From positions 1 to 48,040 of the IMG/VR virus record IMGVR_UViG_3300005518_000019: DNA of 48,040 nt. The stretch is one strand, 5' to 3'. Source of the DNA: a virus. Of this stretch, positions 5,569-40,720 are shown in pieces. Made by a program: the position numbers and the translations under genes. Each line of letters starts with the position of its first letter. Position 1 is the first letter of the stretch. Below the pieces are notes generated by a model. It had not been told where the DNA came from, did not search any database, and saw nothing but the letters and a program-made list of their open reading frames with translations.

Positions 5569-5748
5569 ATGACAGTCATTCAAGCAATCCAGCTCTGGTG
5601 GTGCCTGAACGCTCCCTGGCACAAGATCAGGAGTGAGAAGATTGGTAACAATATTGACCTGATAACGTGTTCGTGCGGTCGGGAGCATCACGTCAACTAC
5701 AGTGATATCTACAACGAGATCAAGGAGATTGATCCGTCTGCATCGTGA
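5569..5748 (+). CDS. 59-residue Cys/His protein, convergent with the spike gene
   Basis: Starts MTVIQAIQLWWCLNAPWHKI and contains ITCSCGREHHVNY, a small possible metal-binding turn. A G-rich stretch (GGTGGGGG) directly before the ATG may serve as ribosome site. The last 29 bases overlap the 3' end of the minus-strand spike gene, a tail-to-tail overlap. Function unknown. Confidence 0.55.
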   Translation: MTVIQAIQLWWCLNAPWHKIRSEKIGNNIDLITCSCGREHHVNYSDIYNEIKEIDPSAS

Positions 5749-8344
5749 TTGTGAAGGTCGGGGCTGTCGTTAGCCCGGTAAAATTTCCAGCGGTCCATGG
5801 ATCGATATTGGCGGTAACCCAAACCGCCTCCGGCGGGAAGCCGTTAGTGCTGTTAATGGTGTCGCCAGCACAAGCACCCGGCGAGCCATTGCAAGTTACG
5901 CCGCTAGGCGTAATGACGCGCGTTCCCGCCTGCTTCAGATTTATCGTTGGAAACCAGTCCCACTGAGTGTAGTTGGATTGTTTAATCGTAAAGTTGTGGA
6001 ACTGACCAGTCGGATTAAGGAACGGAGCGCCGGTCCCGACAAACGGCTGCGTGACGTCAATAGTAAGAGTGACAAGCTTCCCACGCGATGGCATCGATCC
6101 GATAGCCGCAACTGACGAGGGGGTGAAAGTTCTTTTGATGTAAGACGCTAATGGCGCACCCGGCGTCGCGCCAGCTTGCACGCTCATTCCAAACACGTTG
6201 GGATCAATAGAGCTTGTACATGTGTCACAAGTGAAGTTGGGCGAACCCTTCATGGAAAGCGAAAGCGGGTTCGCAGACAAAGAACTTGTATCGGGGAGAC
6301 CTCCGGCAGCAGTCGTCTGCGCATAGGTATTTGCGGTTCCCCACTGAACTGTCTGCGACACCGCGCTTTGTGATCGCGTCGCGTTATCGCCAACGACGAT
6401 CGTCTGTGGACCAGACCCGGATACGCTCCTGATATACGTTCGCAAGTCAGCTGGGCCGCCCGAGTTTCTCGCTCCAGGAATGATGATGACCTTGCCGACG
6501 TCACCCGAGACAAAAGGCGCCGTCGAAACCGTTATCGAGCTGGAACCATTGGTGGATGTAACGTTAGTCGTAGCGGTTTGATCGTCCACAGCGGGCCAGC
6601 TGTCTCCGGTTACAGTCGTAATTTCAGCCCGGCCGATCGTCGCGTAGCCCGTCACCGCATAGAAAAAGCCAGTTCCCGGGACGAGCGGGCCTTGCGCTCC
6701 GGATACGGACAATGGCGCGACGAGAAGGCCACCGCTCATTGTGTAAGGCAGCGGATTATAAGCCAGCGTGTAGTTGGAGGCGAAGTATGGATCGATTTGT
6801 GTCGTTATGATGCAGCGCGTGCAGATCGATGCGCCAGCAGTGTTGCCATAGGCGAAAAGTCCTGGCCCCCAAATATTCAGAGTGCTGTCGCTGATCTCGG
6901 TGCGTTTTGCGCCACCGTCGAGCCGATTCGTGATTGTGGAATTTCGAAGGATGAACAGGTCGGTTGATGAACTTTGGAAAGTGATCTTGGGAATAGTTAT
7001 GCCGTCCATAAGCAATGTGCCGATGAGCTTATCTACCTCTATCTCTTGGAACAAAAATGTTGAATTGTAGGCGCTCCAGCTTTCGTTCTGGCTTGGAATA
7101 GCGCTTTGACTGTTCCCGAACGTTATGTTGCGGAAGGTCATGGAGCGGCCACGGCTCAAGATTTGGCCGTTGGAATTGATCGTCATGCCGCGGAATTCTT
7201 GCGTGGTATTCCATGCGTTTTGCGTGCCGCCGACGCCGGAATTTCCTAGCGCCCAGATGGTGGCTGCACCACCTTGGTCTTGCTGGGAGACGTTGCCGGC
7301 GTTAAAGTTTGGCCAGTTGCTCTGGAATGTTTTAGTCAGCGGGCGATCAAGGGTGACGACGCCCGTTCCAGCATTCACGGCCGTGACTTGCCGCCACTCA
7401 AAATAATTATTGTTCGGCGGGTCTCCGAAGGGCGACAGAAAGAGGCCCTGAATATCCAAGCCGCCAACCATGATCCACTGGCCCACAGGAAACCGGCTTA
7501 CATAGCCGGCGGCCAGAGAAGCGGCGGTCAGTGTGACTGTCCCGTCTCCAGGATTCACAGTCTGGATGCGAGCGGAGCATCCATTTGCGGTAGCCAGCCC
7601 GGAGGTGCAAATGCCCGGAGAGCCGAGCGTCATATCAACGCCGCCGACTGTGTCTAGGGTCGCTCCGGTCCCTTCAACAATCAGGTTCTTGATACCTGCA
7701 GTCCATGCATTGAAGGTGTTCACATAGTTGAATGTGCCTGTGCCAAACCAGCAATTGGACCCGTTTGGAATGGTCAGTACGACCTGATTGCTCCCCTGAT
7801 TTGCTCGCGCCCAGTTGTTGAAGGCGTCAAAGGCTGGACGATCGTCGCTGCCATAGGTGACCGTAACCGACTGTGACGTTACCTGTGTCCCAGTGTTGCT
7901 TGACAGCGTAACGGTTTGGCTAGTTCCATTGAACGCGCTGACCGCGCTGATTGTGGAGTTGAAGGTGCTGCCGCCGCTTGCAACAAGCGGGATGGAAATT
8001 GCCTTTCCGATATCTCCGCTGCCAAATTGGTTGGAGAACACCGTCACCAAAGGACTAAACGGCGGCGGTGTACTGATCGTTATCGTCGCGCTGATCTTGT
8101 TCCCGTTGCACGTCGTGGTCGATGTGCAAGGACCGGCAACGCTTGCGACGCCAGTAACGAGGTTGCAAGTGATCTGAGGCAGCGCAGTTACCGAACGACC
8201 ACCTACAGTTCCGAGCGCCGCCTGATGGATGGCGTTGTCAAGGTTTCCGATCTTTTCGAACGGCACGGGAAGTGCATACCCGTGTGCTGGCGCCGCCAGT
8301 CCAAACAGTACCAGTACGGCTGCTATGAAATTCCAAATTCTCAT
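5720..8344 (-). CDS. Signal-peptide-bearing beta-helix tail spike
   Basis: 874 residues. Residues 1-23 form a Sec-type signal (MRIWNFIAAVLVLFGLAAPAHG). Later a DDRPAFDAFNNWARAN block followed by VVLTIPNGSNCW is the entry of right-handed beta-helix (pectate-lyase-like) tailspikes, after which short Ser/Thr/Asn/Gly-rich turns continue to the C-terminus. It is rich in cysteines, several in close pairs (TRC, CDTC, CNGSPGAC), compatible with disulfides. Last gene of the leftward unit. The start at 8344 is chosen by ATGA overlap with the preceding gene; a longer frame to 8398 is unlikely. Role: probable receptor or polysaccharide binding or cleavage. Confidence 0.75.
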   Translation of the reverse strand: MRIWNFIAAVLVLFGLAAPAHGYALPVPFEKIGNLDNAIHQAALGTVGGRSVTALPQITCNLVTGVASVAGPCTSTTTCNGNKISATITISTPPPFSPLVTVFSNQFGSGDIGKAISIPLVASGGSTFNSTISAVSAFNGTSQTVTLSSNTGTQVTSQSVTVTYGSDDRPAFDAFNNWARANQGSNQVVLTIPNGSNCWFGTGTFNYVNTFNAWTAGIKNLIVEGTGATLDTVGGVDMTLGSPGICTSGLATANGCSARIQTVNPGDGTVTLTAASLAAGYVSRFPVGQWIMVGGLDIQGLFLSPFGDPPNNNYFEWRQVTAVNAGTGVVTLDRPLTKTFQSNWPNFNAGNVSQQDQGGAATIWALGNSGVGGTQNAWNTTQEFRGMTINSNGQILSRGRSMTFRNITFGNSQSAIPSQNESWSAYNSTFLFQEIEVDKLIGTLLMDGITIPKITFQSSSTDLFILRNSTITNRLDGGAKRTEISDSTLNIWGPGLFAYGNTAGASICTRCIITTQIDPYFASNYTLAYNPLPYTMSGGLLVAPLSVSGAQGPLVPGTGFFYAVTGYATIGRAEITTVTGDSWPAVDDQTATTNVTSTNGSSSITVSTAPFVSGDVGKVIIIPGARNSGGPADLRTYIRSVSGSGPQTIVVGDNATRSQSAVSQTVQWGTANTYAQTTAAGGLPDTSSLSANPLSLSMKGSPNFTCDTCTSSIDPNVFGMSVQAGATPGAPLASYIKRTFTPSSVAAIGSMPSRGKLVTLTIDVTQPFVGTGAPFLNPTGQFHNFTIKQSNYTQWDWFPTINLKQAGTRVITPSGVTCNGSPGACAGDTINSTNGFPPEAVWVTANIDPWTAGNFTGLTTAPTFTITMQTDQSP

Positions 8345-9078
8345 GGCTGGAATGAAGCCGCTTGATTTGCCCACGCATTGCTCGACGCAATGGTCCATGA
8401 AAGATTGGTGGTCGCGCCGGTTGCAGTTATCGTTGACATTGACAATCTATTGCCGCCTCCGGCCTTGTTCGCTACCTGGATGGTCTGTCCACCGCCCGCC
8501 CCCGTGAGCGTGATGTTATTATCCGCAGTGGCCGCGATGTCGATAACCAGATCGCCAGAAACGCTGGTGACCGATACCGCCGGGGTGGTGCTGGTGCCGG
8601 CTGCTTTGTTGGAAGCGCGGGCAGCGGTTGTCGTGTTTCCGCCCGTCACCGTGATGGACCCTCCCGCAACGAAACATGAGGAGCCGGAAGAGAAGTTGAT
8701 GGAGACTGTCTGCGCGCCGGAAGACGGGGCGGCTAACACATACAAGCGGACGTCATTCTGGTTCCCAGAACCAAATACGGCTGATTGTGCAGCCGCTCCC
8801 ATACTGGTCCCACCATACGTTACCGTCGAAATCGTGCAGTTTGAGTTGAAGTTCGTTAACCCGACTGCCACGCCGGTGGGCGTTCCTACAGGCGTGTGCG
8901 TCCATGATAGGCTCCCGGCGCCTCCCGATCGCTGGGCGCTGGCCGCGGCATCGAACGCTACGCCTCCGCCCCCGCCTGCCGAAGCGGGCGTCCCCGGTCC
9001 TGGCTGCATCCCGCCTTGTGCAAATGCAGCGCCGGTAAGCGCTACGATGAACGCTAGAGCAAGTCCGATGCGCTTCAT
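8341..9078 (-). CDS. Secreted beta-rich protein of the tail/spike cassette
   Basis: 245 residues. N-terminal signal MKRIGLALAFIVALTGAAFA then a Gly/Pro linker and a beta-sandwich-like body with repeated Thr/Ser strands (VGLTNFNSNCTISTVTYGG; VSVTSVSGDLVIDIAAT), as in carbohydrate-binding or decoration proteins. Two cysteines. Start overlaps the upstream stop by one base (TAATG) and its stop overlaps the spike start. Confidence 0.65.
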   Translation of the reverse strand: MKRIGLALAFIVALTGAAFAQGGMQPGPGTPASAGGGGGVAFDAAASAQRSGGAGSLSWTHTPVGTPTGVAVGLTNFNSNCTISTVTYGGTSMGAAAQSAVFGSGNQNDVRLYVLAAPSSGAQTVSINFSSGSSCFVAGGSITVTGGNTTTAARASNKAAGTSTTPAVSVTSVSGDLVIDIAATADNNITLTGAGGGQTIQVANKAGGGNRLSMSTITATGATTNLSWTIASSNAWANQAASFQP

Positions 9079-13624: not shown

Positions 13625-15199
13625 TTATTTGATCCTGCGAGCCCAGATCGTGCCGTTTCCGCCAGCCGTGCCGCCGGTGAAGTCCACCTGCATGGTGCCG
13701 TTCAATTGCGTGGTCGTAGTGAAGAACACCTGCTCCGGATTGTGAGTGAATATCCACCCATTCGAATTGTTGCTGGTTATGTGTGCGGCGGTCGTGCCGT
13801 TATAGGGGGCACTCGATATGCTCGTTCCGATGCCGTAGTTGATCGAGGCGTGCATATGAGTGAAAGTCGTAGCACCGATCTGGCCAAATACTTCGGCGGA
13901 GCCGCCGACTACCCAGATGCCCTGTGGTACGCTGATGTTGCCCCAGTTGAAATCGGTCCCGGTAGTCAGACCGGTAGTTGTGGTCCCCACGCGCTTGTAA
14001 ATGAATTCACCGACGCAACCGGCGCAGGCCATAGCATTGGCGAACGCTGTATGAGTCCCGGACCCGGCAGACGAGGTGTTGACGCAGGTTCCGGTCTTCG
14101 CATTGGCAACGGTGGTTGCTACAGCGAAGCTGTTGGTGAGAAGCTGAGCCCCTGAGCAGACGTAATACAGGGTTGGATTCTGGCTGTAGGTGTTCGGTGA
14201 AACGGCGCCAGCGACCGGTAAACACGCAGTTAGCCCGGTCGGGAGCGCCCCGCCTGAGTTGCAAAAGAACACAGGCGTCATGGCGGTTAGGCCATGAGCG
14301 GCCCAAGTAATGATCCCCGGTGAACCATTGCTGATGAGAACCGTGGAGGTCGTTGGAAGAAGGCCGGGAACCTGAGTGACATTGTAGCCGGGGCTGGAGA
14401 TCGGCGTGGTGGCCGCGGTGGGAAAGATCGCCAGGTCGCCCGCGGTCGGCGTGCCCGTTCCCGTAACGCCGCCGCATGTCGGGCAGGAAAACTGGATCGG
14501 GTTGGTGCCCGAGATTACGATCGGCGAAACGGCCGACAGATTTGCAGCAATGGTGGTGGGGTTGACGCCGGTAAACGTAATGCCGTTTCCAGCCGCGAAG
14601 GTCGAACTCGGCACCGATACGCAACTCGTCAGGTTGCCGCCGCTGTCGAAGCATGCCCCCATACTGGCGCGACTGGCCAGCGGCGCCAGCAAGCTCAGCG
14701 TTTCGCCGGGAGGCGCCTGCACGGTGCGGAACTGGCGGTCCCACATCTCGCGAAGCTGGGCCTCGATCGCGTTAATGGCCTGGTTGAGATCGCGTGCCGC
14801 GACGCCGCGGTTCTCGGCATATTCGGACAATCGCCGCGGGCGCTGAGCTCCGACGATTTGCACGGTCCCGGTGCGCGCCGTGGTGAAGGTCAGTACCGCA
14901 TCCGTAATCGGGCGCGGCAGCGTGGAAATCGACCCCGACGGCGAGGTGATGTTCCAGTTGCCGGATTGCGGGACCTCGACGCCGTTGATGTAGACTTTCA
15001 GCCAGTTGGCGACGTCGGTACTGTCGCCGTAAAGCTGGAAGTTAACGTTGCAGGCGCAGGTCGAGGCGGAGATGACATAGGAGGTGCGGCGCTCGGTATC
15101 GGGAAGCGCGGGCACCGGAGGCGGCGCCTGGGCAAAGGCGGGCGCGAGCCCGGCGGACAGGGCAACGGCGAGGATCAGGCTGCGGAGCTTTCGCTTCAT
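13625..15199 (-). CDS. T7-like tail fibre carrying a signal peptide
   Basis: 524 residues. Residues 1-24 (MKRKLRSLILAVALSAGLAPAFA) look like a cleavable Sec signal. Residues about 35-175 follow the T7 gp17 N-terminal pattern that docks fibres to the tail: beta strands with VYINGVEVP, then QRPRRLSEYAENRGVAARDL and a helix (NQAINAIEAQLREMWDRQF). The distal part is Gly/Thr/Ala beta-rich with many paired cysteines (STCACN, CPTC, ACAGC). The ATG overlaps the stop of the ejection protein (ATGA), the usual fibre position. A signal peptide on a tail-docking fibre is unexpected. Confidence 0.78.
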   Translation of the reverse strand: MKRKLRSLILAVALSAGLAPAFAQAPPPVPALPDTERRTSYVISASTCACNVNFQLYGDSTDVANWLKVYINGVEVPQSGNWNITSPSGSISTLPRPITDAVLTFTTARTGTVQIVGAQRPRRLSEYAENRGVAARDLNQAINAIEAQLREMWDRQFRTVQAPPGETLSLLAPLASRASMGACFDSGGNLTSCVSVPSSTFAAGNGITFTGVNPTTIAANLSAVSPIVISGTNPIQFSCPTCGGVTGTGTPTAGDLAIFPTAATTPISSPGYNVTQVPGLLPTTSTVLISNGSPGIITWAAHGLTAMTPVFFCNSGGALPTGLTACLPVAGAVSPNTYSQNPTLYYVCSGAQLLTNSFAVATTVANAKTGTCVNTSSAGSGTHTAFANAMACAGCVGEFIYKRVGTTTTGLTTGTDFNWGNISVPQGIWVVGGSAEVFGQIGATTFTHMHASINYGIGTSISSAPYNGTTAAHITSNNSNGWIFTHNPEQVFFTTTTQLNGTMQVDFTGGTAGGNGTIWARRIK

Positions 15200-18100
15200 T
15201 GCGGTTTTGCCTTCATGGGGATGCCAAACGCTTCGTTCCCGGACGATTCTATCTGATCAAACACGCGCCTTAAATAGAAAATGTTCTGCGCTGCAACTAA
15301 CCTGCGGATAGCCTTGCTGTCGCTCTCGCTCCACTCCGACGGCTTGGATGCCGCCGACGCCACCGACAGGATGCCGCCAATCTTGCCGGCCGTGGGCCCG
15401 AGGATCTGATCCATCGCCGAGCGCGAGGCATATCGGGTGAGCGGCTTGTCGGCACCGATCAGGCGGTAGACGTCGACGCCGCCGCGGGTGGCCTTGGACG
15501 CCAGCGCGTTGCCTTCCTCGAACCAGCCGAGAATGCCGCCCTTGCTGATGGCTTCCTTGATCCAGTCCTGCGGCTTGTCGCTGGTCGGCTGGCCGCCGGT
15601 GAGGCTGCCGATCTTGTAGGACAGCATGCCGAGCCCCATCGAGAACATCATGCCTTGCAGCACCTGCGCGTCGCGGCGCTGGAGGTTGGAGATCAGGATG
15701 CGCTCGGTCGCCGCCGCGGTGAAGCTCTTGAACTGGCCGATCACCGACAGGATCGGGTGGCTCATCCAGAGCGGCTTCTCCTGCCCCGGCGTGATCACCG
15801 AGATATCCACATCCCGCGCCACCGCGCCCTCGAACACGCGGCGGGCTTCCTTGTCGGTCCAGTCGGCGGTGTTCGGCAGGTGCACGCCGTCGCGGACCTC
15901 GCCGCCATCCTCGAACGCCTTGGCGATCCGCTCCGCCATATGCGGCTCGATCCCGGATTCGCCGAGCGTGCGCAGTTGTCGCGCGGAGATCGTGCCTTCG
16001 GCCGCCGCCTTCGTTGCGCGCAGGATTTCCGAGCCCGACACCAGAGAGGCATTGACCTTGGCAAAGTCGGTCCAGGGCGCCAGCATGTTCGCAAACTGAA
16101 ACTTGCCGGTAGCCCATTGCATGGTCCTTTCGACGCGCGACTGCGGATGGTAGGTGTCCAGCGTGTCGGTCAGCGCGTGGTGACGCGAGGCCAGCACCGA
16201 TTCCACCGCGATGCCCATGGCGCGATACTGCCGGCCGGCTTCCTTCCAGACGTCGGACTGCCGCGTCAGCATGTTGAAGAACGGCACCCAGGCGTCGGAG
16301 AAGGCGTTGACCATTCCGTGCCGCATCACCACGCCGGCCATATCCGGCAGCGACGACAGTGCGGCCGAGCCCATCGAGGTCAGCACGTTGTAATTCTTCA
16401 GCACCGCGGCGGCGCGCGCGGCGTTGCGCATCGGCTGGTCGGCCGAGATGCCATAGATGCCGCGGATGCGGTCGCGCACGGCGGCGAGGTCGTCGATCAC
16501 CCCCTGCCGTTCCTTCTCCAGCCGGGTCCGCTCCTTCTCGGATTTGGCGGCGTCGCTCAGCGCGGCGTAGTCGTCATTGATCTTGCGGAACGCTTCGGTC
16601 ATCCGGGTGTCGCCGAACTTCTCGGTCAGCAGCACGTCCGGCACCATCGTGCGCAGATGGGTGGCGACGATGTGCTCGATGTCATTGTCGAGGAAATCGC
16701 GGATCGTGGCATCGGGGATGTTGAACTCCCGGGCCGCTAGCGCGCCGCGGGGCTGCTCGCCGCTGCCGCCGAACGCGGTTCCATGTTCCATGCCGAGGTC
16801 ATAGGGCAGCCGGCCGTCGGGGGAGCCGATGATCCGGTCGGTGATCTCGTGCGCGCGGCTGCGGAGTTCGTCGCGGGACAGATCGCGGTCGGATTCGAGG
16901 ATGCGCTTCACGGCCTTGTCCACCGCCTTGTCGGCGGCGCCGAGACGCTTAGCTTCCGGTGCCCTGCCCTCTTCAGCCTTGGCGCGGGCCTTCAGTGCGG
17001 ATTTCGCCTCCGCGACGCTCTTGCCTTCCCATGCCGCGATCTGCTCCTCGATCATCTTGCGGGCGCGGTCCTGCTGTGCATTGGCGCGGATCAGGTCGTC
17101 CTCGAGGCCGGGCCGGAACAGGTCATCATCTTTCGACTTCGCCAGTTTCTTGGTGACGCTCTCGATCTCGCTGGTAGCGGCGTTCAGATCGCGCTGCAAA
17201 CCTTCGATCTTGAGCTTGGTCTGCGCCTTGGTCTGCTGATCCCCAACCAGCCAGTCGGTCACCCGGTCAACGAACTCCGGCCGCTTTGCCGCGATCGCCT
17301 GCTTGTTATAGAGCCGCTGGACGTAGCTATCGGCCGTCTTGACGTCGACGCCTTCCGGCAGCAGGCCGAGGTCGATCGCGCGCTTCTTCATCGGCTCGAA
17401 AATCTTGTTGCGGACGTTCTGCGCCGCCATCTGAACCTGCGGGATGGCGTGCGTGTCGCCGCTGCGGAGTGCGTCGGTCACGGCCTCCTTGAACTCGGAA
17501 TAGGACATCTTCCCTTCCGGGTTCTGCCCGAGCATGTCGCGGACGGCACCTTGGATGCGCGGCGCGGTCACCTCCTCGCCAAACCGGTACTCCGAATAGA
17601 GGCTCGACAGATTGTCGCCGACCTCGACCTGCCCCTGATTGATCATCAGCCGGGCCTCACGATCGAGCGCCGGGCCCGCTGTGGTCACACCGCCCTCGAG
17701 ATTTTCCTTCGTCAGCAGCGGCGTCTCGGCAAGGTCCGCGGCTGCCCGGCGCGCGGCGACGCTGTCGGCACCGAACAGTCGCTGCATCGGCGAGGTCTTC
17801 TCCACCACCGTCCGCACGCCGGGGATCTGGTCGAGGCCAAACGGGACGAGTTCGATCTTGCGGGTATCGCTTCCGGCTGCACCAGCGGCCATAGCCTGTC
17901 CAGTGCCAAAAAACTGCGAAGGGGTAGAGCCGGACAAAAATTCGGATTGGGCGTCAACAGCGGAGCGGTGCTTCGCCCAGTAAGCTTCGCGGTCCGCCTC
18001 GCTCGCTCCAATCGGAGGCTTCTCCGGCAAATCAACCTTTCCAGCGACCTGCAACGATTTTTCTGGACGAAACGCGGCTACCTGATCCTGCAAAATCGCC

Positions 18101-19257
18101 GCATCGAGGTTCGAATATTCGTCTCCTTCGATCTTTCTCGTGCCGAAATGCGAAAGAAAACGATCCATCTCTGCCTGCGGCAATCCGTCAAAGCCTTTAA
18201 CTTGAATGCCGTCGTAGCCCTTTGCCTTGAGCGCAGCCGCGATTTCTGTCCCGCTTTGCAGCGCTTCTTTGCCAATAGCCTTTTCGAGGGCAGCAGCGTT
18301 GTTTGGCGTGAGGACAAATAGGTTGTCGAAGTTGGCCTTAACTCGAACGGCAGCGTTGATGCCTAGCGCACCGTTATCGCCCTTCACCCATTTGCCAGTC
18401 GCGTCGAGGTATGTGGCGTTTCCAAAAACTCCGTTGCCTCCATCGTACCGGAGATTATCGTCAACCTGACTGAGCGGCTTGAAGCCTGAAAAGTCACCAC
18501 CGTGACCATGCAGCAAGTTAAGTTCTGCGGGGATGGCTATGGGTGCCTCGCCCGTCCCAGGGTTTCCCGCGTGCGCGTTGATCGCCGCGCGGTCGTCCCG
18601 CAGCTTGGCCTCCATCGCCGCCCGCTCCGCTCGGCCGAGATAGGCCGCCGCGCTCCCGCCGATCAGCGCGGTCAGCATCGTGCCGGAAGCTACGTTGATC
18701 GCTGACTCCTCGAAGGTGCGGGTTTGCTGGGTGGCGTGCAGCAGCGCTTCCTGCGCCACGGTCTGCATGAACCCGGCCTTGCCGAGCTCGACCGCGGCCT
18801 TCTGGAACGACAGCCCACCGCGCACCGCATCCACGCCGACACCGCCCGGCAGCAGCAGCGTGGGATCGAGCAGCCCGGCGCCCATCTGCGCCACGAAGCC
18901 GATCACCCCGCCGGAAGATAGCGTCTTTCGATCCGTCTCTTCCTGGTCGATCTGGCTCTTGATGGCGAGCGTCTCCGCCGGCGACTGCGAGCCGACGAAC
19001 GACTGCCCATGCGTCAGGAAGTATTTGTCGTCGCCCCAGCCCTTGATCTCCTTGACCGGATTGTAGTCCGGCTCCGGCGCGTATCGGCCGGAGTTCCGCA
19101 TATATTGCAGCGCAGAAACGACGCTGTTTGACTGGCGGAACGCGGCACCCCACAGCGCCTCGCCGCCGTCGGTGGTCTCGGGCGCGCGGGCGGGCGGCCC
19201 CCCCTGCTCGGCGCGCAGGCCGAAGTCGGCTTCCGGGGCGACGTCGATGGCGCTCAT
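15196..19257 (-). CDS. Large DNA-ejection protein with inserted ART-like domain
   Basis: 1353 residues, the size of T7 gp16-class internal virion proteins. Hydrophobic stretches near residues 115-145 and 193-207 suit membrane insertion during ejection. Residues about 247-400 match an ADP-ribosyltransferase-like pattern of phage polyvalent proteins: LLHGHGGDFSGF (His250), GNATYLDA (Tyr283), KAKGYDGIQVKGF, then an acidic EGDEYSNL and QDQVAAF. This insert has lower G+C than its surroundings. Residues about 665-800 are coiled coil, and the C-terminal third is helical. ATGA overlaps at both ends tie it to its neighbours. No muramidase motif here; that lies in the next protein. Confidence 0.8.
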   Translation of the reverse strand: MSAIDVAPEADFGLRAEQGGPPARAPETTDGGEALWGAAFRQSNSVVSALQYMRNSGRYAPEPDYNPVKEIKGWGDDKYFLTHGQSFVGSQSPAETLAIKSQIDQEETDRKTLSSGGVIGFVAQMGAGLLDPTLLLPGGVGVDAVRGGLSFQKAAVELGKAGFMQTVAQEALLHATQQTRTFEESAINVASGTMLTALIGGSAAAYLGRAERAAMEAKLRDDRAAINAHAGNPGTGEAPIAIPAELNLLHGHGGDFSGFKPLSQVDDNLRYDGGNGVFGNATYLDATGKWVKGDNGALGINAAVRVKANFDNLFVLTPNNAAALEKAIGKEALQSGTEIAAALKAKGYDGIQVKGFDGLPQAEMDRFLSHFGTRKIEGDEYSNLDAAILQDQVAAFRPEKSLQVAGKVDLPEKPPIGASEADREAYWAKHRSAVDAQSEFLSGSTPSQFFGTGQAMAAGAAGSDTRKIELVPFGLDQIPGVRTVVEKTSPMQRLFGADSVAARRAAADLAETPLLTKENLEGGVTTAGPALDREARLMINQGQVEVGDNLSSLYSEYRFGEEVTAPRIQGAVRDMLGQNPEGKMSYSEFKEAVTDALRSGDTHAIPQVQMAAQNVRNKIFEPMKKRAIDLGLLPEGVDVKTADSYVQRLYNKQAIAAKRPEFVDRVTDWLVGDQQTKAQTKLKIEGLQRDLNAATSEIESVTKKLAKSKDDDLFRPGLEDDLIRANAQQDRARKMIEEQIAAWEGKSVAEAKSALKARAKAEEGRAPEAKRLGAADKAVDKAVKRILESDRDLSRDELRSRAHEITDRIIGSPDGRLPYDLGMEHGTAFGGSGEQPRGALAAREFNIPDATIRDFLDNDIEHIVATHLRTMVPDVLLTEKFGDTRMTEAFRKINDDYAALSDAAKSEKERTRLEKERQGVIDDLAAVRDRIRGIYGISADQPMRNAARAAAVLKNYNVLTSMGSAALSSLPDMAGVVMRHGMVNAFSDAWVPFFNMLTRQSDVWKEAGRQYRAMGIAVESVLASRHHALTDTLDTYHPQSRVERTMQWATGKFQFANMLAPWTDFAKVNASLVSGSEILRATKAAAEGTISARQLRTLGESGIEPHMAERIAKAFEDGGEVRDGVHLPNTADWTDKEARRVFEGAVARDVDISVITPGQEKPLWMSHPILSVIGQFKSFTAAATERILISNLQRRDAQVLQGMMFSMGLGMLSYKIGSLTGGQPTSDKPQDWIKEAISKGGILGWFEEGNALASKATRGGVDVYRLIGADKPLTRYASRSAMDQILGPTAGKIGGILSVASAASKPSEWSESDSKAIRRLVAAQNIFYLRRVFDQIESSGNEAFGIPMKAKPQ
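17880..18530 (-). other. Low-G+C insert encoding the ART-like domain
   Basis: Hand counts of 60-base lines give about 50-52% G+C (lines starting 18061, 18121, 18301) against 72-73% in flanking parts of the same gene (17521, 18781). Edges are approximate. It suggests a later acquisition of residues about 243-460. Confidence 0.65.
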
Positions 19258-22200
19258 GGCTGGGGCATCGCTGTGTTGAAGGTGCGGGCCTGCTCAACGT
19301 CCTGCTGGGCGGCCTGCAGTTTGGCGCCGTACTTGCTGATGTGATCGGCTGGGTCGAAGCCCACCCGGCCCGGCAGGATGTCCAGCGTGCCGTCCTTGCG
19401 CTTGATCGCGACCTGGTAGGATGGCCGCCGGCCGCCTGCGATCTCGGCCTGGGTCTGCCCGTCGGCGATCATGCCGGCGACGTCCCAGTTCCGCGACTGC
19501 ACCACGCCGGCAAAACCGACCTCCAGCGTCCGCGGTCCGGCGCTGAATTGCTCACCGGCGCGCTTGGTAACCCAGGCCGTTAAATCCTGTTTTAGCCACT
19601 CATGTGAGCCGTCAACCTGTGGATAAGCCCGTTCCGGCGGGTTTTTCATGATCTGGTTGCCGGCCGCCTGCGAGACGCCCCAGGTCGATTGCAGCCGCTG
19701 CACGGCGAGGTCCGAGGCCTTGTCGGCGTCCACGCCATAGGTTCGCAGCGCGGTGTATGTGGTCTGGTAGTCGGCCACCATCTCGCCGCCCTTGATGCTG
19801 TCGAAGGGAGCGGACGGGGTCGATCCGGTCAGTCGGCCGATGCCAGGCCAGCCGGTGCCGAGCTTGTAGGCCATGTCCTGCGGCGTCAGGCTCTTGGTCT
19901 CCTTCTCCGCCGCCTCCTTGGCGACCTCGCGCGACTTGACGGTTGCCGGGTCGTCGGCCGCATTCAGCCGCTCCGCCAGTTCCACGGCATTGAACGAGCC
20001 CTTCAGCCCCTGCCACGCCTGCAGCTTGGTGATCGCCGGGTTGCCGAGGTTGCTTTCGGCCTGGGCCGGGTTGTCGCGCCACAGCTTGTCGACGACCGAC
20101 ATCGCCGTGGACATCTTCACCGGATCCTTGCTCGACATCATGCCGGTCAGGGCATTGGCAAAGCCCTTCTCGCCGACCAGCTTGTTGACCTCTTCGGGCC
20201 GCAACACAGTCGCGATTTGGGTCAGCACATCGGCGCCGGCGGGGCCTTCGAGCGCGGCCTGCAGCTGCGGCAGCTCGTCCTTGCCGAGCACCGGCGGCGC
20301 CGGGGTGTGGTTCATCGCGGCAATACGCTGCGATGCCGCCACGCGCTCGCCCAGCGCGCCGGCGATGGTGCCGGGCTGGCCCGGGTCGATCGGCGCCACC
20401 GGCGCGATCCAGCCCCGTGTGGCGGCTTCCTGGTAGGGCCGCTCGGCGAGGTTCTTCTCCGACTTCTGGTACTGCTCGAGCGCGGCCGCGGCCACGTTCA
20501 TGTGGTGCTGGTCTTGGCCGTTCGTCGCCTCGCGGTACTGCGCGATCACAGCGTCGCGCTGCGGCTTCTCCATCTGCGCCAGCGCGCCGCCGAGCAACCG
20601 CCCGTTCATGGCTTCCGCCACCGGGCCGAATTTCTCCGGATATTGCGCTGCGGTCTGGTTGACCAGCGCGACGTCCTCCGGGCGCGCCAACAGCCCCAGG
20701 TCGCTCGCCTTGCCCACGGCGGTTGCGGCCTGCGTCGCCGACTGCACGCGCAGGCTCTCGTCGGCCGCGATGGTCCGCACATAGGCCGAGCCGAGGAACG
20801 GATTGCGCTGCAGGTCGGCTGCAGTGAAGCCCGGGCGGCCCGGGGCGGCCGCAGGCGCGAGCGCGGGACCGGCGCCGGCCGCTGGCTGCCGACCGCCGGG
20901 CAGCGACGCCCATTGGCCCGAAAGCTGGCGCGGCACGTCCTCGATCGCGCCCTGATCGCCGGAGCGCAGGGTCGCAAGCAGATCACGGCCGGTCCTGGCC
21001 TTGTATTCCGTCTGCGCCAGATCCCACGCGGCGGCGTCCTGGTTCGCCGGCGAGAAGTCCTTCAGGCCGAGCTTCTTGGCCTGCTGGTCCCAGGTCGAGC
21101 CGAGGAACTGGTAGAGCCCGGCCGCGCTGGTTTTCTTGCCGACGTCGGGGCCGGAGGTGATCGGCGCGTAGACCCGCGGGTGGTCGCCATAGCCCTGGAA
21201 CTTGCCGCCGCCATAGAGCATGTCGTAGCTGGTGGCCTCGCCGCTGGCGATCCGGCCGAGCAGCGCGCGGCCCTCGGCGGGGATTGCTTCATTGGCAATC
21301 GGCGTGCGCTTGATGCCAAGCACCTCGGCCTGGATGGCCTGCGGCAGCGTCGAGATGCCCGACAGGTTCATGCGCACCGTGGTCGCGGCGAGGATGCGGT
21401 TAGCCGCTTCCGGATCGCCGCGGCTGATCGCCTGCCGGATTTCCATGCCGACGATCGGATCGGTCGGCTTGATCGTGCCGTTGGCGATATTCGTCTCGAG
21501 CTCGCCCACCACCTTGCGGCCGGCGTCGATCTTCTCCTTGGCGTCGCCGGTCAGGTAGGCCAGCCGCGCCATGCCGTGCGAATAGAGCCGGTTGCGGTCG
21601 GTCTCGGAAATGTACGGGTTCTGCAGGATGTCCTTGTTCAGGATCGCCTGCGCCTCGGCCTTGCCCTTCCGGGTGAAGGTCTCGTCGACATGCGCGACCA
21701 GCGCCTCGCCTTGCAGCAGGCCCTTGAAGTTTTTCACCTCGAGGTCGATCTGGTCCTTCGGCATCCGGAACAGCGGATTGGATCCAAGCGCCTCATACGA
21801 CGCCTGCAACCGCTCCAGCGACTGTTTGAATTCCGGCGTGTCGGTGCCGCCGGGCTGCCGCGCCAGGCCCTGCAGCGTGTTCTTCTGGTCGGCGATCGTC
21901 GCGTTGATCGACTTCTGCTGGTTGGTGACGTCGATGTTGGCCGACTGGTTGGTGATCGCGTTGAGATGCTGCGTCGCGACCTGCTGGCCGTGCAGGGTTG
22001 CCGCCTCGCCGATGGTGCCCTTGTTTTCGGCCTGGTACTTCTCGATCCATGCGCCAGCCGCCGCCTTGTATCCTGCCGGATCGGTCGGATACTTGGCGTG
22101 CAGATTGTTCAACTCTTCCGACATCACGTTGCTGGTCTGCGCCAGCGTGCCGGCCTTGACCGCCTCGTGATAGGCGTCGCCGGCGCGGCCGAAGATCAGC

Positions 22201-22442
22201 GAACTCGCCGGATTGACGGTGGACACCGAGCCGTCGGCGTTGCGGACAACCTTCTGCTGCGCCAGGTCTTGAGCAGCCTGTTCCTTGGCCTGCTTGGTCG
22301 CGATCTCCATCGTGGCATCGGCAACGGCACCCATCGCGCGTGCCATCTGGTCAGCCGACGACATGACGTCCTGCCGCGATACCGAGGACGTCGGCGCGGT
22401 AGAGGTGACAAGCTTTTCCGGCAGAAGCGGGAGATCAACCAC
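19254..22442 (-). CDS. Ejection protein with internal GH104-like muramidase
   Basis: 1062 residues, GTG start preceded by AGGAG. Long helical N-terminal region (Gln/Ala/Lys-rich). Residues about 393-518 show a phage lysozyme pattern: LLGRIASGEATSYDMLYGGG (catalytic Glu candidate Glu402), GYGDHPR, and TSAAGLYQFLGSTWD, followed by LGLKDFSPANQDAAAWDL. This is the GH104/virion transglycosylase type that opens peptidoglycan during DNA entry. The rest is helical, like T7 gp15/gp16. Overlaps the upstream gene by eight bases and the next by four. Confidence 0.85.
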   Translation of the reverse strand: MVDLPLLPEKLVTSTAPTSSVSRQDVMSSADQMARAMGAVADATMEIATKQAKEQAAQDLAQQKVVRNADGSVSTVNPASSLIFGRAGDAYHEAVKAGTLAQTSNVMSEELNNLHAKYPTDPAGYKAAAGAWIEKYQAENKGTIGEAATLHGQQVATQHLNAITNQSANIDVTNQQKSINATIADQKNTLQGLARQPGGTDTPEFKQSLERLQASYEALGSNPLFRMPKDQIDLEVKNFKGLLQGEALVAHVDETFTRKGKAEAQAILNKDILQNPYISETDRNRLYSHGMARLAYLTGDAKEKIDAGRKVVGELETNIANGTIKPTDPIVGMEIRQAISRGDPEAANRILAATTVRMNLSGISTLPQAIQAEVLGIKRTPIANEAIPAEGRALLGRIASGEATSYDMLYGGGKFQGYGDHPRVYAPITSGPDVGKKTSAAGLYQFLGSTWDQQAKKLGLKDFSPANQDAAAWDLAQTEYKARTGRDLLATLRSGDQGAIEDVPRQLSGQWASLPGGRQPAAGAGPALAPAAAPGRPGFTAADLQRNPFLGSAYVRTIAADESLRVQSATQAATAVGKASDLGLLARPEDVALVNQTAAQYPEKFGPVAEAMNGRLLGGALAQMEKPQRDAVIAQYREATNGQDQHHMNVAAAALEQYQKSEKNLAERPYQEAATRGWIAPVAPIDPGQPGTIAGALGERVAASQRIAAMNHTPAPPVLGKDELPQLQAALEGPAGADVLTQIATVLRPEEVNKLVGEKGFANALTGMMSSKDPVKMSTAMSVVDKLWRDNPAQAESNLGNPAITKLQAWQGLKGSFNAVELAERLNAADDPATVKSREVAKEAAEKETKSLTPQDMAYKLGTGWPGIGRLTGSTPSAPFDSIKGGEMVADYQTTYTALRTYGVDADKASDLAVQRLQSTWGVSQAAGNQIMKNPPERAYPQVDGSHEWLKQDLTAWVTKRAGEQFSAGPRTLEVGFAGVVQSRNWDVAGMIADGQTQAEIAGGRRPSYQVAIKRKDGTLDILPGRVGFDPADHISKYGAKLQAAQQDVEQARTFNTAMPQP

Positions 22443-22911
22443 CTCCAGGTACTCCTAGGCTTGAGAGACCCTTCGCGATACCCGCGCCAGTCTCGATCGC
22501 TCCGGCAAACAACGCGCGGTCTGCTGCCGATTTGTAATACTTCGCGTCGGCGCGATCCTGGCTCGCTTGCGCAAGGATGCTGTTGACGGTCGTCAGGCGC
22601 TGCTCCGTTCCGATCTGCTGCTGCTCGTCAAGAATGGCAGCTCCCGTCGGCGAGTTCGGATCAGCGCGGGCCGCGGCGCGCACGGCCTCGATATTGCCGA
22701 GCGTGGTGTTGAGGCTGCGCGACATCTGCGCGCCGGTCTGCACGGCTTTCAGCTCGCCATACTTCGCGGCGTTCTCCAGTTTCGAGGCTTGCCACTCGTT
22801 CGCCGTCGCGACGCCCTCGGCCTTGAGCATCGTCGAATAGGCTGACAGCCCGATCGAGGCCAGCGTGTTCCCCCCTGCAGCGCTGCCGCCACCGCCTCCG
22901 CTAGAGCCCAT
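22435..22911 (-). CDS. Small internal virion (ejection) protein
   Basis: 158 residues: Gly/Ser N-terminus (MGSSGGGGGSAAGG), a hydrophobic helix, then long Ala/Gln helices and a Gly-rich end. Size, composition and place between nozzle and the large ejection proteins match the T7 gp14-type protein. Ribosome site AAAAGGGATC. Confidence 0.75.
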   Translation of the reverse strand: MGSSGGGGGSAAGGNTLASIGLSAYSTMLKAEGVATANEWQASKLENAAKYGELKAVQTGAQMSRSLNTTLGNIEAVRAAARADPNSPTGAAILDEQQQIGTEQRLTTVNSILAQASQDRADAKYYKSAADRALFAGAIETGAGIAKGLSSLGVPGGG

Positions 22912-39765: not shown

Positions 39766-39830
39766 TGTGAAGATCCGACGCCGATCCGCTCGGCGATCGC
39801 GACGCAGATACAGATTAGAACGGGCGACGA

Positions 39831-40118
39831 TTACCGCCGGGGAACGATCTTGAAGTTTCGCATGGCGTGACGACGCATGATCTCGGCAACGATGACCGCG
39901 ATCGCGACACCCGACCATTCTCGTTGTCCGCCGAGATAGCGCTCAGCGGCACGAACGCTGCAGCCACAAAGCGCGGCGAGCGAAGGCGCAGTGTTCGTAG
40001 GCCAAAGCGTGTAGGCGATGTCGGCGAGAACGGTTTCGACCATTGGGTCGGTCTCGCGACCATTCGGTCGGACGGTTTCGCGTGCGGGTTCCGCACGTCT
40101 CTGTATGTTCCCAAGCAT
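39831..40118 (-). CDS. Small HTH protein
   Basis: 95 residues; PSLAALCGCSVRAAERYLGG looks like a helix-turn-helix, followed by a hydrophobic helix (VAIAVIVAEIMRR). Good ribosome site (GGGGAG) supports the ATG at 40118. Lies downstream of the Cro-like gene. A competing frame from 40417 overlaps it out of phase. Confidence 0.65.
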   Translation of the reverse strand: MLGNIQRRAEPARETVRPNGRETDPMVETVLADIAYTLWPTNTAPSLAALCGCSVRAAERYLGGQREWSGVAIAVIVAEIMRRHAMRNFKIVPRR

Positions 40119-40413
40119 GAAACTCCCCAAGCAAACGCAACTGGTAGTGAAGATGTCCTTAGAGTTCGAAGCCGTGCTGCGAAACGCGATCGTATTTCTG
40201 ACAAAGACAGCGTTCTTGCCGCATGGCGAGAATTTGACAGCAGTTTTTGATATGTCTGTTTCAATACAGAACAACCTGCGGTGCAGGTGTCCAAAAAGTT
40301 CACTTCCGCACACGGGAATTTTGTGCAACGATTGGTGTCCGAACAAGAACAAGAACAGCGGACACATCGCCGGGGGGCTAAGGAATGGGAATCGTCGTGA
40401 AATTCCCGCGCCG
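40119..40413. promoter_or_regulatory. 295-base region with two dyads
   Basis: ACCTGC-GGT-GCAGGT (40274-40288) and GTGTCCG (40335-40341) / CGGACAC (40359-40365) enclosing tandem AACAAG units. Another GTGTCC lies nearby (40287-40292). A frame starting at the ATGA after the Cro-like gene is open here but runs over the HTH gene in the wrong frame; I treat the region as probably regulatory. Confidence 0.4.
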
Positions 40414-40626
40414 TCATACGCGGGCCTCAGTACGATCATCCAAAAGCAAGAAGTCATCAGCAGTAACGGCGCCATCCGTGGCGCGCGCAATCTTTTCGGC
40501 AACATCGCGGGAGGGCCAACCGCTGCCGTCGCAAAGCGATGTGATCCAGCCACCGGTTACGCCGATACTGGCTGCGAATTCACCGCGCTTGATGCCCTTG
40601 GCCTCAAGATATTCTGCTAGTTTCAT
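40414..40626 (-). CDS. Cro-like regulator
   Basis: 70 residues: MKLAEYLEAKGIKRGEFAAS, then IGVTGGWITSLCDGSGWPS, a YdaS/Cro-type HTH with the 'P-S-x-x-V-A-x-K-I' third helix. Divergent from the repressor, first gene of the leftward unit. No ribosome site: the promoter places the transcript start next to the ATG. Confidence 0.8.
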   Translation of the reverse strand: MKLAEYLEAKGIKRGEFAASIGVTGGWITSLCDGSGWPSRDVAEKIARATDGAVTADDFLLLDDRTEARV

Positions 40627-40634
40627 GGATGAGG

Positions 40635-40663
40635 CTTTTAGCCCAGCTAAAAATTTAGCGCAA
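40635..40663 (-). promoter_or_regulatory. Leftward promoter for the Cro-like gene
   Basis: Minus-strand TTGCGC (40658-40663), 17 bases, TAAAAG (40635-40640). Transcription would start near 40628, two bases before the ATG. It overlaps the TTTTAGC...GCTAAAA dyad. Confidence 0.55.
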
Positions 40664-40720
40664 GTGAAAGTTTTAGTTCCACTGCATGGACAGGAAGGAA
40701 CTCCAGCCGCACACTTTAGC
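40636..40720. promoter_or_regulatory. Operator cluster between Cro-like and repressor genes
   Basis: TTTTAGC-CCA-GCTAAAA dyad (40636-40652), TTTAGC half-sites (40654-40659, 40715-40720) and the direct element TGAAAGTTTTAGTT (40665-40678). The last half-site touches the repressor ATG. AGGAAGGA at 40692-40699 is too far for a normal ribosome site; a 12-codon frame (40686-40724) covers it and ends in ATGA. Confidence 0.65.

Follow-up and report, generated by a model that had tools for sequence, protein, structure and literature searches.

An ADP-ribosyltransferase-like domain in a putative swappable cargo slot of a T7 gp16-like ejection protein

The window analysed here, meaning the whole stretch of 48,040 nucleotides that makes up the IMG/VR virus record IMGVR_UViG_3300005518_000019, encodes a 1353-residue protein that by profile comparison belongs to the T7 gp16-like ejection proteins, and within this protein lies an insertion of about 200 residues that close relatives lack. 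Our reading, to which we assign a probability of about two in three, is that the ejection protein bears an exchangeable enzyme cargo after its first membrane-crossing region, and that the present cargo is a recently acquired ADP-ribosyltransferase (ART) of the ART-PolyVal type, with a histidine-tyrosine-aspartate (H-Y-D) active site, predicted to act on the host. Relatives' sequences used for comparison are given L-numbers (L002, L004, etc.), and the features on which the argument rests are as follows.

15196 to 19257, minus strand: T7 gp16-like ejection (internal virion) protein, 1353 residues, without an N-terminal lysozyme domain (PHROG family phrog_342).
17908 to 18528, minus strand: inserted segment, called slot A, residues 244-450 (empty site in relatives; step in G+C at third codon positions, GC3).
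18037 to 18516, minus strand: ART-PolyVal-type ADP-ribosyltransferase-like domain, residues ~248-407 (ART-only hidden Markov model, HMM; hhalign; AlphaFold/Foldseek).
17908 to 18036, minus strand: linker behind the ART-like domain, residues 408-450, with a G+C content of 0.576, also low (composition).

The identity of the carrier had been proposed in an earlier reading made from the letters alone (the sequence-only reading), and profile comparison bears it out. The open reading frame (ORF) is intact and matches phrog_342, “internal virion protein with endolysin domain”, with an E value of 7e-93, residues 28-1338 aligning to positions 221-1224 of 1235. Because this match is near full-length and starts at profile position 221, we take the protein to be a gp16-like ejection protein that lacks a hydrolase domain at its N-terminus, and no N-terminal transglycosylase domain was found in it by that alignment. 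In gp16 the transglycosylase domain is phage-specific and movable to the gp15 homologue (PMC8954989), and therefore its absence here does not rule out membership in the family. The QFKSF region also aligned with T7 gp16, and is not significant alone against the single T7 sequence.

The segment 244-450 is an insertion, given that close relatives have an empty site and that GC3 steps at its limits. L002 (84% identical) and L004 (89% identical) align on both flanks and lack ~200 residues of the window insert, which is missing from 24 more distant homologues as well; at the insert site L002 reads GEMAVEIPANENAPAGTGQAMAAGAA. G+C is 0.539 in the insert (0.53 in the domain core) and 0.661 in the remaining ORF, and GC3 is 0.575 against 0.860, with no codon-aligned piece of equal length from the remaining ORF below 0.816. 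The sequence-only reading had described this contrast as some 21 points of G+C, with flanks at 0.72-0.73; the step itself is real, but its size was exaggerated, being ~12 points (28 in GC3). Such a step suggests that the ART-like insert was acquired recently by horizontal transfer. Relatives were tallied with duplicate contigs merged by our own count, leaving ~30 distinct ones with the site covered. Three of these have a long insert at slot A (L009, L032/L034, and L040), L023 has a coiled-coil-like stretch of ~90 residues, and the others (~26/30) have a short linker; slot A is also empty in a Bradyrhizobium phage-plasmid (ISRA432). Homologues of the same composition in all relatives had been named as the evidence that would speak against an insert, and what we find is a segment of more than ~90 residues or an ART at the site in 4 of 30, so that the alignment to related ejection proteins upholds the domain as an insert. 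G+C is low in the L009 insert too (0.55 vs. 0.642 for the gene), and close or equal to that of the own gene in L032 and L040. No clear target-site duplication was seen at either insert junction.

What the relatives carry at the same site suggests that slot A takes swappable, enzyme-like cargo, since they hold other enzyme-like domains, or none. In L009 the slot contains a GNAT-like domain (Acetyltransf_1 with E 0.0011, just under the cut-off, and several other GNAT models weaker). In L040 the slot segment is 39% identical over its full length to Bbp10 of Bordetella phage BPP-1 (E 9e-47); the matching part of Bbp10 opens with PBECR1 (PF18809, E 1.9e-7), and the L040 segment contains HETGH, a HExxH motif. 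Bbp10 itself is annotated merely as a crystallin-motif or unnamed protein. In L032/L034 the slot holds an ART-like domain related to that of the window. A second variable site, slot B in the coiled-coil region, is larger in many relatives, and in L037-L039 it includes an ART-PolyVal domain over the Pfam cut-off (E 9.2e-10; 39.9 bits, cut-off 31.2) at residues 1028-1199 of proteins that belong by profile to the same family as the window ejection protein.

L009:8001-12059: ejection protein with GNAT-like cargo in slot A.
L040:6623-11191: ejection protein with PBECR1 nuclease and HETGH peptidase-like cargo in slot A.
17098 to 17220, minus strand: variable coiled-coil region (slot B) of the window protein, residues ~680-720, limits approximate (comparison with relatives).
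L037:1887-9917 (also L038, L039): ejection-protein relative of 2677 residues, whose coiled-coil region is longer by ~1200 residues and contains the ART-PolyVal domain.

A more general hypothesis, which we offer tentatively and would rate a little short of an even chance, is that gp16-type podovirus ejection proteins have standard cargo slots (after the first membrane region, and in the coiled coil) that exchange ART, GNAT, and PBECR nuclease/HExxH peptidase domains horizontally, so that the DNA-entry channel would deliver a port-tethered enzyme that disarms the host before phage gene expression. The function of virion-borne phage effectors and their route to the cytoplasm are still little known. 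A defined cargo site in the best-studied ejection machine, the T7 gp16 family, would offer a natural comparison, in which the same backbone carries an ART, a GNAT, or nothing, and it opens two points to testing, namely the side of the membrane to which the slot is brought and the identity of the first host targets. It also suggests that annotations of “internal virion protein” conceal effectors that family libraries miss.

The identification of the domain as ART-like draws on an ART-only HMM, profile-profile comparison, the H-Y-D triad, and a fold match. The HMM was built from 21 ART-PolyVal domains, none of them from the window family; these domains were taken from bacterial genomes and viral contigs, the latter by means of a degenerate DNA pattern for AKGYDGI. 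It scores the window domain at 24.9 bits (E 1.3e-9 for one sequence), and the best of 5000 shuffles reached 11.1. Run on 2611 ORFs, drawn from the window together with its relatives, it gave a higher score only to the true ART-PolyVal protein of L037-L039, and the others had ≤4.1 bits. In hhalign, the three-member family of the window, Aristophanes, and L032 domains, compared with nine ART-PolyVal domains, yielded a probability of 91.6% (E 8e-7); 100 column shuffles stayed at ≤1.65%, 18 natural decoys at ≤2.84%, and the reversed profile at 0.08%, and the window sequence by itself gave 43.8%. A tblastn search of the domain against 50,697 phage records returned one convincing homologue, the internal virion protein C of Aristophanes (34%, E 8e-6). 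A third homologue is that of the relative L032/L034, and scans of viral contigs for kin of the window domain found nothing besides it. At the profile level the window domain is homologous to ART-PolyVal, and on these comparisons we regard it as a divergent ADP-ribosyltransferase fold of that type.

The sequence-only reading had described an ART-like motif pattern at residues ~247-400, and the motifs lie where they were claimed, with LLHG at 248, TYLDA at 282, and YDGIQV at 348, followed by LQDQVAAF at 389. In ARTs of polyvalent proteins, the active site follows a rule of H in strand 1, Y in strand 2, and D in strand 5 (PMC5512222). H250, Y283, and D349 of the window protein align with the H-Y-D of ART-PolyVal, and in the predicted model they fall at strands 1, 2, and 5.

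18508 to 18510, minus strand: His250 of LLHG, the predicted histidine of the active site, where strand 1 ends; it lines up with the histidine in the YHGT motif of ART-PolyVal domains and closes model strand 6-11.
18409 to 18411, minus strand: Tyr283 of NATYLD, the predicted tyrosine of the active site, within strand 2; it lines up with the GxYFT motif of ART-PolyVal domains and lies in model strand 43-46.
18211 to 18213, minus strand: Asp349 of KGYDGI, the predicted aspartate of the active site, at strand 5; it is an invariant D in the ART-PolyVal alignment, with model strand 111-114 directly after it.
18073 to 18090, minus strand: C-terminal strand QDQVAA, residues 390-395, followed by an F-x-P motif (alignments).

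The third residue of the triad is most likely the D of KGYDGI, which is our own reading of the published rule; the later acidic residues, which the sequence-only reading had listed in its ART-like pattern, give way to it. We also considered Q392 as a lost catalytic Glu and dropped the idea, as polyvalent ARTs are H-Y-D enzymes (PMC5512222) and other ART-PolyVal domains show Q, S, V, or Y at that position.

The predicted structure agrees with an ART, though with a dependence on the alignment that has to be kept in view. The confident AlphaFold model used a 14-row alignment that included 12 ART-PolyVal domains, and reached a predicted local distance difference test score (pLDDT) of 68.2 and a predicted template modelling score (pTM) of 0.69. 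When this model, with ARTs in the alignment behind it, was compared with the PDB by Foldseek, the leading matches were for the most part PARP catalytic domains (best E 0.07, probability 0.80); against viral models it found many proteins bearing the name ART-PolyVal or PolyVal ADP-ribosyltransferase, with probabilities mostly of 0.84-1.00 in the first fifteen.

The position of slot A within the carrier bears on how such a domain could reach the host. Two hydrophobic segments precede the insert.

18850 to 18906, minus strand: hydrophobic segment, residues 118-136, counterpart of TMH I of T7 gp16 (hydropathy; N-terminal profile).
18637 to 18693, minus strand: hydrophobic segment, residues 189-207, the last before the insert (hydropathy).

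A profile of the N-terminal parts matches residues 44-201 of the phiAB440 protein with E 2.7e-7. In T7 gp16, TMH I spans residues 243-410, and the following part, gp16-C (411-1118), has been modelled in the host cytoplasm (PMC8954989). Because of that modelled location, slot A, which follows the counterpart of gp16 TMH I, would open on the cytoplasmic side. As the carrier falls in the T7 gp16 family, for which the same model places the C-terminal part in the host cytoplasm, the domain would be an injected effector. By analogy with T7, the ejection protein would be packed in the head within the internal core; at infection it would exit via the tail, partly unfold and refold, and thread the inner membrane; and the slot, as the start of the gp16-C part, would arrive on the cytoplasmic side. 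There the domain could refold and, with host NAD+, ADP-ribosylate a host macromolecule during the first minutes, staying tethered to the port through which the DNA enters. The likeliest guess for its target is a protein near that port, be it RNA polymerase or a defence protein such as a nuclease. The comparison with T4 Alt that accompanied the sequence-only reading holds for this delivery logic and not for the family: Alt is an ART in the head that is injected with the DNA, but it belongs to the arginine-serine-glutamate (R-S-E; Alt/VIP2) clade (PMC5512222), and it is a separate protein, unfused to an ejection channel, whereas the window domain has the H-Y-D pattern.

Several observations weigh against our reading, and they bear on different parts of it. 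With respect to catalysis, Q392 occupies the position of E in many relatives and is a conserved Q, the window shows HGH instead of the HGT or HGS of most ARTs, the model has a pLDDT of <50 at its residues 11-35, which makes the surroundings of the H uncertain, and the L032/L034 version apparently lacks the aligned H (FKG in L032), for which reason the domain family may include inactive forms. These points could be taken to mean that the domain has an ART fold and is not an active enzyme, being either filler, degenerate or structural, that makes the ejection protein longer, or a binder of nucleotide, DNA, or NAD+ without transfer. The cargo is moreover dispensable for ejection, most relatives having none, and linker length at slot A is freely variable. 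We nevertheless consider an inactive domain unlikely, as the window and Aristophanes domains, from phages of different hosts, are 33% identical and both keep the H-Y-D triad, a sign that the active site has been under selection, and as the cargo of relatives at the same site resembles enzymes (GNAT, PBECR/HExxH) rather than filler.

With respect to the place of action, the N-terminal profile matches T7 gp16 itself (322-376, within TMH I) only weakly (E 0.004), and when the window was aligned locally to T7 TMH I, the score of 55 was not significant by itself, the best of 1000 shuffles having reached 71. An ART might instead work within the virion or in the cell that makes the phage, acting on phage proteins or on competitors in the lysogen, rather than in a newly infected cell; the gene belongs to the late structural module, with presumably late expression, and ModA and ModB of T4 are phage ARTs that act after synthesis in the cell (PMC5512222). 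We hold this to be improbable: the fusion partner is of the class that T7 ejects into the cell, joined at the part modelled as cytoplasmic (PMC8954989), and an ART acting before lysis would not need a tether to an ejection protein.

With respect to the fold, the curated ART-PolyVal profile PF18760 gave no match to the window domain, scans with Pfam, PHROGs, and NCBIfam did not recognise it directly, and sequence searches of the PDB gave chance matches only. The expectation that profile searches would recover an ART family thus held for the ART-only HMM and hhalign, and failed for PF18760 and Pfam. AlphaFold with only two family members produced a failed model (pLDDT 36.5), and Foldseek found no match in the PDB at E 0.001. 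Structure prediction, offered as a check on the ART claim, does return PARP and ART-PolyVal matches; because ART-PolyVal sequences stood in the alignment, however, the model is consistent with an ART fold and is not independent proof of it. The lack of a direct curated match, the failure of AlphaFold without ART relatives, and PDB E values above 0.05 would be in keeping with some other alpha/beta enzyme or a nuclease fold with a chance likeness in the GYDGI and HG motifs. This seems very improbable, given that the ART-only HMM and hhalign results lie well beyond every control, and that motif order and strand placement are right for an ART. Finally, a misjoining of two genes or two viruses, which an uncultivated-virus contig with an abrupt change of composition might bring to mind, is hardly credible when the frame is open across both junctions, relatives align to the flank at either end, and homologous domains occur in the same protein family in L032, L034, and the isolated phage Aristophanes.

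An injected, H-Y-D-type ART in an exchangeable slot, as we propose for the window protein, has several partial counterparts. ART-PolyVal (PF18760; Tox-ART-HYD2-type, Iyer et al. 2017, PMC5512222) shares the H-Y-D order and the GxxxYLD, KGYDGI, and AFxP motifs, is likewise tied to virion proteins, and is homologous by profile-profile comparison; the window domain is too divergent for the Pfam model, and it sits in a gp16-like ejection protein, whereas ART-PolyVal is found in N4-like virion RNA polymerase, a MuF fusion, and a giant DarB-like protein. ARTs are the commonest protein-modifying domains of polyvalent proteins and are fused to N4-like virion RNA polymerases (PMC5512222); ARTs of polyvalent and virion proteins are predicted to be injected (PMC5512222, PMC9503650), and ARTs occur in only 3% of podoviruses (PMC9503650). 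Polyvalent proteins combine at least two unrelated activities, effector domains included, in one injected polypeptide (Iyer et al. 2017, PMC5512222). The window protein consists of two modules, the ejection backbone and the ART-like domain, and its relatives L037 and L040 have more; no large-polyvalent-associated domains were found in the window protein. We found no report in the openly licensed literature of an ART or GNAT within a gp16-type ejection protein. ART effectors in virion proteins were known already; what looks new is an apparently swappable slot in an ejection protein of this type.

A close parallel comes from Acinetobacter phage Aristophanes (MT783706), whose putative internal virion protein C (QNO11464.1) belongs to the same carrier family (phrog_342, E 3e-115) and, like the window protein, has the homologous domain (residues ~370-525) upstream of the conserved C-terminal half. 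It differs in domain sequence (33% identity), phage group, and host. Other friunavirus versions match it only from residue ~601, and that of phiAB440 has 1032 residues compared with 1394. The Aristophanes genome paper mentions neither ADP-ribosylation nor the internal virion protein. The second-best PDB match of the window model was chain B of 9k3a, from the cyanophage A4 pre-ejectosome, which is ORF27 of Anabaena phage A-4L (Foldseek probability 0.47).

L124:20119-25269: Anabaena phage A-4L ORF27 (record KF356198; PDB 9k3a chain B).

ORF27 is also an ejection-core protein and has an ART-type YHGT...GTYFS motif at 1424-1460 (a weak HMM match, E 3.5e-4), but profile searching shows no homology between it and the window protein. 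If the ART reading of ORF27 is true, there is already a structure, solved in a virion, of an ejection-core protein that includes an ART-like part. Caulobacter phage Jess A gp039c and Pseudomonas phage F116 gp60 resemble the window protein in being large late-module proteins, with ART-PolyVal above the Pfam cut-off, and differ from it in their unrelated backbones with LPD22/LPD23 domains. These two proteins (L126:4153-10272 and L125:4363-9312, respectively) are annotated as “lysis protein” or “unknown”.

The ejection protein lies in the setting of an internal-core module, beside gp14/gp15-like genes, with a phrog_418 internal virion protein upstream and tail tube and connector genes; the window also encodes a major head protein, and an integrase at the opposite end.

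19254 to 22442, minus strand: upstream ejection-module protein, 1062 residues, with a lysozyme/endopeptidase-type region at 390-521 (phrog_17230, phrog_28672).
22435 to 22911, minus strand: internal virion protein of the same ejection module (phrog_418, E 6.5e-7).

The 1062-residue protein probably supplies the peptidoglycan hydrolase that is absent from the gp16-like protein. From the genes for tail tube, head-tail connector, major head protein, and integrase, the phage is classed as a temperate podovirus, and a relative of it is present in Bradyrhizobium. The nearest named relative of the window ejection protein is that of Bradyrhizobium sp. ISRA432 (L122, NZ_CP094518.1, “plasmid unnamed”), which is 69% identical, and this similarity in a circular Bradyrhizobium record makes Bradyrhizobium or a near relative the probable host. 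The L122 record is a 46.6-kb circular phage genome deposited as a plasmid, with integrase, portal, and capsid genes. Elsewhere in the window, a low-G+C region (0.53-0.56) holds an 892-residue ORF (5720-8398, minus strand) with no Pfam or PHROG match, perhaps a separately acquired tail fibre or spike, and a further low-G+C stretch (down to 0.52) lies at 39800-40700, outside the structural module.

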